A stretch of DNA of 64,000 nt, taken from positions 341,585-405,584 of the forward strand of contig NZ_JQSG02000002.1 of assembly GCF_000754095.2 (NCBI RefSeq), written 5' to 3'. A program made the position numbers and the translations under genes. Shown here piece after piece: positions 14,848 to 29,809 of this stretch; the first letter of the stretch is position 1, and each line of letters starts with the position of its first letter. The DNA comes from Acidihalobacter prosperus. Lineage in GTDB: Bacteria > Pseudomonadota > Gammaproteobacteria > DSM-5130 > Acidihalobacteraceae. The notes under the pieces are model-generated. The model was not told where the DNA came from, ran no database searches, and worked only from the letters and a program-made list of their open reading frames with translations.

Positions 14848-14938
14848 TCTCGGCAGCGTCTCCCTATATATTCCGATTTTCTTATATACTCGGCGCACGG
14901 CCATCATTGCCGGCCTCGCCACGGAGATGGAGACGCGC

Positions 14939-28339: not shown

Positions 28340-28792
28340 TCAGACCGAACGCGCCGCCTGCCGCCGAGCCAGTCCCTGCTGGGCGGCGACCCACAGCCGG
28401 ATACGCTCGCGCAATTCGTCGCGCACGCGGCGGAAACGGTCGTGCGGCAACTGCCCCTCGACCGTTTCCGCGGGGTCGTCGAAGCGCCAGTGGATGCGCT
28501 CGCTGTCGCCGGGGAAGGTCGGGCAGCGATCGCGCGCGCGGTCGCACACCGTGATGATGTAGTCGAAACGCTCGCTTGCGAACAGGCTCAGCGACTTGCT
28601 GGAATGGCCCGCCAGATCAAGCCCGGACTCGGCCATCACGGCATAGGTCAGCGGATGTATGCCGGTCGGCTCGCTGCCCGCGCTGTACACCTCGAACCGC
28701 GCGCCGCCCAGATGTCGGAGGAAGGCCTCCGCCATCTGCGAACGGCAGGCATTGCCGCTACACAGGAACAACACACGCACCGTCTCGCTCAT
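28340..28792 (-). CDS. arsC: Arsenate reductase, low-molecular-weight phosphatase type
   Basis: 150 residues. The P-loop CSGNACRS (Cys 11, Arg 17) and the extra cysteines Cys 83 and Cys 90 (TVCDRARDRCPTFPG) give the three-thiol relay of thioredoxin-coupled ArsC, which reduces arsenate to arsenite. The Asp in FDDPAE is the general acid. The ATG at 28792 follows the family; upstream codons reach into the operator. It is divergent from an ArsI-type gene. No arsR, arsB or acr3 is next to it. Confidence 0.92.
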   Translation of the reverse strand: MSETVRVLFLCSGNACRSQMAEAFLRHLGGARFEVYSAGSEPTGIHPLTYAVMAESGLDLAGHSSKSLSLFASERFDYIITVCDRARDRCPTFPGDSERIHWRFDDPAETVEGQLPHDRFRRVRDELRERIRLWVAAQQGLARRQAARSV

Positions 28793-28831
28793 CACACCCT
28801 CCGAGGGGCTTGCCAGAAATATACGCAAGGT

Positions 28832-28856
28832 AGTATATATGTTCTAACGAATATAT
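28832..28856. promoter_or_regulatory. AT-rich near-palindrome between arsC and arsI
   Basis: ATATATGTTCTAACGAATATAT at 28835-28856 is an imperfect inverted repeat (ATATA..TTC / GAA..TATAT with one extra base). It overlaps a minus-strand TATACT -10 box (28832-28837) for arsC. Such AT-rich dyads are typical ArsR/SmtB sites, but no arsR gene is in the window. Confidence 0.55.
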
Positions 28857-28894
28857 GAAGACGCCATCGCGTCGCCATCCCACGGGAGATCAGC

Positions 28895-29350
28895 ATGAGT
28901 CGCTTCCATCTGCATATCGCCGTCGACGACCTCGACCGCAACATCGCCTTCTACACCGCCGTGTTCGGCGCCGATCCCACCGTCGTCAAGCCGGATTACG
29001 CCAAGTGGCAGCTTGAGGATCCGCGCATCAACTTCGCGATCTCCGCGCGCGGCGCCAAGCCCGGCGTGGACCACGTCGGCCTGCAAAGCGAGGACGAGGC
29101 CGAATTGGCCGCCATCCGCGCCCGGCTGGAAGCCGCCGGCGTGGCCGGCGTGGCGCAAGAAAACACCAGCTGCTGCTACGCGCGCTCGGACAAGTACTGG
29201 GTGCAGGATCCGCAGGGCATCGCCTGGGAAACCTTCCACTCGCTGGGCAGCATCCCGCTGTTCAGCGAAGAGGACGCTGCCGGCGCGCGGCAGCAGGACG
29301 CCGCCTGTTGCCCTCCGGCCGCGGCACCGGCAGGCAACTGCTGCGGCTGA
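28895..29350 (+). CDS. arsI: ArsI/CadI-type metalloenzyme (C-As lyase family)
   Basis: 151 residues, a vicinal-oxygen-chelate domain. It matches ArsI, the Fe(II) dioxygenase that demethylates trivalent organoarsenicals, and its relative CadI. Candidate metal ligands are His 5, His 60 and Glu 112; the As-binding vicinal pair is Cys 93-Cys 94 (NTSCCYARSDKYWVQDP). A flexible C-terminal tail adds two more CC pairs (AACCPP and GNCCG), usual in this family. A GGGAG Shine-Dalgarno is present. It is divergent from arsC with a shared operator-like dyad. C-As lyase versus cadmium-induced role is not settled by sequence alone. Confidence 0.88.
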   Translation: MSRFHLHIAVDDLDRNIAFYTAVFGADPTVVKPDYAKWQLEDPRINFAISARGAKPGVDHVGLQSEDEAELAAIRARLEAAGVAGVAQENTSCCYARSDKYWVQDPQGIAWETFHSLGSIPLFSEEDAAGARQQDAACCPPAAAPAGNCCG

Positions 29351-29476: not shown

Positions 29477-29809
29477 ATGAATCGAGCGACCACACAATCC
29501 GTTCTCACGCTGCTGGGCAGCGGCCTGCTGCTGGGCCTGTTCGCGGTGCCGGTCGCCGCCACCGCGGACGACGCCGCTGCGTTGCGCGTGCCGATCACGG
29601 TGGTGCCGCCCGATCAGCCGCTGGTGCCGCATATCGACCAGCTCATCGTGACGCCCGGCGGCGATGTCGACCGGCTGGACACGCATCCCGGCGAACACGG
29701 GATGGCGCGCGCCGAACGCGAGATCGGCGAAATCGAATCGGCCGTCAAGGAAGCCGCCGAAGAGTCGCAGGAGCTCCAGGAAGAAGCGCGCGACATCGAC
29801 AACGACTGA
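29477..29809 (+). CDS. Small exported acidic protein, unknown
   Basis: 110 residues with a Sec signal peptide (about 1-30, cleavage after VAATA or nearby). The mature part is acidic, ending in a predicted coiled coil (about 75-107: [20 protein letters not shown]) of Glu/Ala heptads. No family is recognised. It lies 79 bp before the DyP peroxidase gene on the same strand and may share its transcript. Function unknown. Confidence 0.7.

Follow-up and report, generated by a model that had tools for sequence, protein, structure and literature searches.

A divergent arsC-like and arsI-like gene pair

The stretch of DNA analysed here (64,000 nucleotides of Acidihalobacter prosperus; hereafter the window) carries two divergently oriented genes of the arsenic resistance repertoire with 102 bp between their ATG codons:

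28340–28792, minus strand: arsC-like gene (low-molecular-weight phosphatase fold, arsenate reductase by its residues; ATG at 28792, stop at 28340)
28895–29350, plus strand: arsI-like gene (C–As lyase family; matches to NF041414 and to solved ArsI)

The product of the arsC-like gene matches PF01451 (LMWPc family) with 82.3 bits, over the cut-off, and its Cys11, Cys16, Cys83, and Cys90 align with the solved B. subtilis ArsC (1jl3), so that the P-loop cysteine (Cys11) and the two redox cysteines (Cys83 and Cys90) are all matched. Against TIGR02691 (thioredoxin-type arsenate reductase) it reaches 122.1 bits and stays below the curated cut-off of 174.3, and we call it “ArsC-like” for this reason although the P-loop and redox cysteines align. 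The product of the arsI-like gene scores 134.6 bits against NF041414 (ArsI/CadI), over the curated cut-off of 116, and matches the solved ArsI chains 5c4p/5d4f with an E-value of about 5e-23. Among 16 aligned ArsI-like sequences (three from the genus and 13 of the 21 outside loci described below), His60, Cys93–Cys94, and Glu112 are invariant and His5 is conserved in at least 90%; His5, His60, Glu112, and Cys93–Cys94 align with positions 8 (a Gln), 65, 117, and 98–99 of 5c4p, respectively. We take the two histidines and the glutamate to be the metal ligands of ArsI and Cys93–Cys94 to be its vicinal cysteine pair. The enzyme assignments of an earlier note on this DNA, arsC and arsI, are therefore supported at the level of sequence, with the caution that the ArsC-like protein lies under the TIGR02691 cut-off.

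That note had also described the two genes as flanking a dyad with neither arsR nor an exporter alongside, which is confirmed by the open reading frames, the spacer, and profile searches. None of arsR, arsB, or acr3 adjoins the pair. The ArsR-type profile HTH_5 has 15 matches in the genome and none on the contig of the window, and locally built profiles detect no ArsR-like ORF within 3 kb of arsI. Profile searches of the genome gave no match for acr3 and a single one for arsB, which lies on a contig other than that of the window. The same arrangement, with arsC and arsI divergent and no ArsR within 3 kb, is found in all 3 congeneric genomes (G000, the genome of the window, and G001 and G002). 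For ArsM, no match over the cut-off was obtained in any of 5 family genomes, and the same search on control genomes gave matches below the cut-off in 14/14 and a match over it in 1; ArsM was set aside as an internal source of methylarsenite in all 5 family genomes.

Downstream of arsI, a consensus scan found neither a terminator nor a promoter. A small ORF (29477–29809, plus strand) lies directly 3′ of arsI; its N-terminus is signal-like, it has no Pfam match, and its C-terminal tail is near-identical in two congeners while the remainder has diverged.

A conserved, predicted ArsR operator in the arsC/arsI spacer

The spacer between the two genes contains the following features:

28835–28856, no strand: predicted ArsR operator ATATAT-N10-ATATAT, conserved (pattern and weight-matrix searches)
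28819–28840, no strand: possible further operator dyad that overlaps the first (half-site spacing 16 bp; second-best weight-matrix score, 22.8 bits)
28832–28859, minus strand: arsC promoter-like site (TTCATA, 16 nt, TATACT) overlapping the operator (consensus scan, 1 found versus 0.1 expected), a consensus match that is no evidence of function
28810–28839, plus strand: possible arsI promoter (TTGCCA, 18 nt, TATATA) overlapping the operator, read by eye

The arsI promoter candidate is not among the matches of the consensus scan, and its TTGC is common to the three congeners. Around a variable centre, the arsC/arsI spacers of these congeners have in common GTAGTATATATG...(C)G(A/G)ATATAT. The dyad lies where the earlier note placed it (28835–28856), but its inner TTC..GAA is not conserved, being absent from G002. 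A search with the TTC..GAA core (ATATNTTCNNNNGAATAT, up to 2 mismatches) returned the window site on both strands and ten other places at 2 mismatches. The dyad was not among the repeats reported by a repeat search run at default settings.

In its exact form, the plain pattern ATATAT-N10-ATATAT occurs at 5 sites in five whole family genomes, all of them at ars genes: G000, G001, and G002 each carry it between arsC and arsI, and G001 and G004 carry it at the arsR promoter. This is more than chance, for which a rough figure assuming independent bases is about 0.016 sites in 16.2 Mb of DNA with a G+C content of 64.4%. When up to one mismatch is allowed, the pattern matches 25 places compared to 19 for the reversed control, so that it is informative in the exact class only; two of the 20 places at one mismatch are the second, overlapping dyad of the same spacers (G000 and G001; absent from G002).

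Alignment of the arsR–arsB spacers reveals the element in 5/5 genomes, with arms that are altered or degraded in G000, G002, and G003. A degenerate pattern derived from these five arsR sites (three centre positions of which were freed after the arsI sites were known, and whose 22-base register comes from the window site) matches 8 places across the five genomes when at most one mismatch is tolerated, compared to 0 for the reversed control. These places are the 5 arsR promoters and the 3 arsC/arsI spacers, seven of them exact and one mismatched. A weight matrix built from the arsR sites only ranks 28835 first in the window with 28.0 bits, while the best score of 30 simulated windows is 18.9 bits. 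Third in the window, with 20.1 bits, comes an unrelated place at 14866: positions 14866–14887 are intergenic and operator-like, differing from the plain pattern at a single base, and none of the genes alongside was recognised as an ars gene.

The AT-rich dyad could also be read as two overlapping back-to-back promoters with symmetric −10 boxes and no repressor site, given that the arsC promoter-like site overlaps it and that the spacer stretch 28812–28860 has 33% G+C within a window of 67% G+C. Ordinary promoters lack the pattern, whereas all 5 exact sites and all 8 places of the derived pattern are at ars genes, and we consider the promoters-only explanation very improbable.

A distant arsR-arsB-arsC cluster with the same predicted operator

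The operator found in the arsC/arsI spacer also precedes an arsR-arsB-arsC cluster on another contig (G000:C3, about 308.6–310.8 kb). There, an ArsB over two ArsB cut-offs is encoded divergently from an ArsR of the NF007528 subfamily (over cut-off) and is followed by an ArsC that, with 193.3 bits, is over the TIGR02691 cut-off of 174.3. An arsR adjoining arsB with the start of arsC behind is present in 5/5 family genomes (the loci compared break off within arsC). The proposal of the earlier note that an unlinked ArsR regulates the pair is well supported by this shared operator at the arsR–arsB promoter, with arsR on a contig other than that of the pair. The genes, their aligned residues, the shared operator with its conservation, and the location of ArsB are features of the sequences themselves.

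The C3 ArsR carries the motif ELCVCELT, in which the first two cysteines of R773 ArsR are kept and a Thr occupies the place of the third, and additional cysteines are present in RLRC and close to the C-terminus. It lacks the complete Cys32-Cys34-Cys37 set that defines R773-type (type 1) repressors (PMC11868830). The same source states that two thiols are sufficient for methylarsenite and that this compound elicits a response from an ArsR of another type with two cysteines (PMC11868830). Since two thiols suffice, it is possible that the C3 ArsR responds to methylarsenite as well.

Another regulator of the genome, for example a different ArsR/SmtB-type protein, might bind the site instead of the C3 ArsR, and the 15 HTH_5 matches of the genome leave other candidates for this role. 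Yet the operator precedes this very arsR in 5/5 genomes, the derived pattern matches no third kind of place in any of these genomes, and the next-best relatives of the C3 ArsR within the genome share only 35–39% identity with it over about half the length; we therefore regard a different binding protein as quite unlikely.

Most likely, judging from sequence and gene context, the arsenite exporter is the C3 ArsB rather than the UPF0718 permease (PF03773; 9093–10043) that the earlier note had suggested. The permease proposal is not supported: this protein is one of four PF03773 matches in the genome, its best match is to the SO_0444 Cu/Zn efflux family with 150 bits compared to a 300-bit cut-off, and it was set aside as exporter for the arsR-linked, over-cut-off ArsB. 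Some arsenical transport by the permease may still occur. The permease gene lies on the minus strand and encodes an LCCC motif, and its product is below the cut-offs for both SO_0444 and SaoE.

Elsewhere in the genome, a block composed of two ArsR-like genes and one PF03773 permease that is over the SO_0444 Cu/Zn cut-off recurs with identical scores on three contigs (C1, 8.5–12 kb; C6, 1107–1111 kb; C7, 13.6–17 kb; L025, L026, and L017), as if a metal-resistance unit had been repeated, or collapsed in assembly.

Regulators and operators at outside arsI loci

A search for arsI at the level of the order led to the same five family genomes only, and the breadth of our comparison rests on 21 outside relatives that come from one single-protein scan, mostly of metagenome-assembled genomes. 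At 19 of these 21 loci (the exceptions are L065 and L067), arsI has an ArsR-like gene no more than 3 kb away, a count that is not independent for the loci that supplied 7 of the 9 seeds of the ArsR neighbour profiles. An arsC match is present at 15 of the 21, in every case co-directional with arsI.

These neighbourhoods also bear on whether the ArsI-like protein may be a CadI-like metal-binding protein that does not cleave organoarsenicals. NF041414 spans both ArsI and CadI, so that membership is no proof of substrate, and, with no ArsM over its cut-off, the search gave no internal source of methylarsenite; but the alignment of His60, Glu112, and Cys93–Cys94 with solved ArsI and the frequent company of arsR and arsC make a CadI-like role unlikely. 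Such a role would concern the function of the enzyme and not its regulation, and it is compatible with repression of the pair in trans.

When up to two mismatches are allowed, the operator pattern occurs at 3 of the 21 outside loci (L047, L048, and L050); with one or fewer, it occurs at none of them. In these three it sits at the promoter of an arsR just before arsI that encodes an ELCVCEL-type ArsR like that of C3, and it forms overlapping dyads as in the window. Even at two mismatches the pattern is absent from the 11 loci in which the cysteines of ArsR are limited to a C-terminal pair, from four loci with a CVCDL ArsR (Sulfurovum or Sulfurimonas), from an Acidimicrobiales locus, and from two loci without ArsR. 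The weight matrix additionally scores promoters of a different ArsR type at L056 (27.0 bits; operator pattern at three mismatches) and L062 (19.5 bits).

The three loci with the operator are organised as arsR-arsI-arsC (L047 and L048) or arsR-arsI (L050, where the contig ends after arsI), and their ArsI proteins share 67, 59, and 59% identity, respectively, with that of the window. They resemble the window system in the type of ArsR and in having comparable operator dyads that overlap at the promoter. In L047 and L048, however, arsR is adjacent and arsC co-directional, whereas arsC of the window is divergent and arsR lies on another contig; likewise, arsR adjoins arsI in L050 but not in the window. 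G003, which belongs to the sister genus within the family, carries an arsR-arsI-arsC locus (L070, 5006–6400) whose ArsR is of a different type and which has transposase-like ORFs in its vicinity.

Probable control in trans and relation to known ars systems

It seems likely that the arsC/arsI spacer contains an operator at which ArsR acts in trans, with one distant repressor serving both genes. Most likely, a local arsR either disappeared or never existed beside the pair, which would be repressed from elsewhere in the genome; the pair probably derives from an operon of the arsR-arsI-arsC type whose operator was kept while arsR disappeared from the locus. Several points count against control in trans: the plain pattern is not clearly enriched at one mismatch, the degenerate pattern was loosened at its centre with the arsI sites already known and took its register from the window site, the outside loci match the operator only at two mismatches, the ArsC-like protein stays under the TIGR02691 cut-off, and the weight matrix also scores 14866, L056, and L062.

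Binding, repression, inducers, enzyme activities, and the evolutionary order of events are what we infer from the comparisons above. The C3 ArsR would sit on the overlapping promoters and repress the arsC-like and arsI-like genes until arsenite, perhaps also methylarsenite, binds the repressor and takes it off the DNA. The distant arsRBC genes and the arsC/arsI pair would then be derepressed together: ArsC would reduce arsenate to arsenite, ArsI would convert methylarsenite from outside into arsenite and formaldehyde, and ArsB would export the arsenite. More tentatively, a single two-cysteine ArsR might sense both arsenite and methylarsenite and run a split regulon, with a three-half-site operator (28819–28856, half-sites 16 bp apart) that lets two dimers control the divergent promoters; we find this extended version possible but doubtful.

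Control of dispersed ars genes in trans has been published before. In Thermus thermophilus (SmtB; PMC5658604), in Pseudomonas putida (ArsR1/ArsR2; PMC7994332), and in the ArsR stimulon (PMC7965956), ars genes are dispersed or cross-regulated, and one ArsR/SmtB repressor acts on ars or other promoters at a distance from the gene that encodes it. The available text of these three sources differs from our case in describing no divergent arsI-arsC pair without a local arsR. The −10 box is overlapped by the footprints of P. putida ArsR, which extend from −39 to +14 and from −36 to +23 (PMC7994332), an extent that fits a site of the length of the window operator. A paper on Acidihalobacter stress responses reports arsRBC and further arsenate reductases (PMC7760498); this arsRBC operon is probably the same cluster as that on C3, and the main text of the paper contains no occurrence of arsI, while its available passages mention no shared operator (PMC7760498). 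According to a review, arsI is always found within ars operons (PMC6205960). Titles and abstract openings from a partial coverage of the literature contain no description of arsI without a local arsR under an unlinked ArsR and, within that coverage, the divergent arsI-arsC arrangement lacking a local arsR is new.

The arsI of this locus has no adjacent arsR or exporter, yet it probably belongs to the arsenic regulon through its kept operator. If the split regulon is real, arsI would have remained under its ancestral operator after losing its own arsR, an example of an ars operon that broke up with its control retained. The locus offers a cheap and concrete case in which to test whether ArsR acts in trans, in what is probably an acidophile of interest for biomining. 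It also cautions against regarding ars genes as unregulated when they lack a local regulator.
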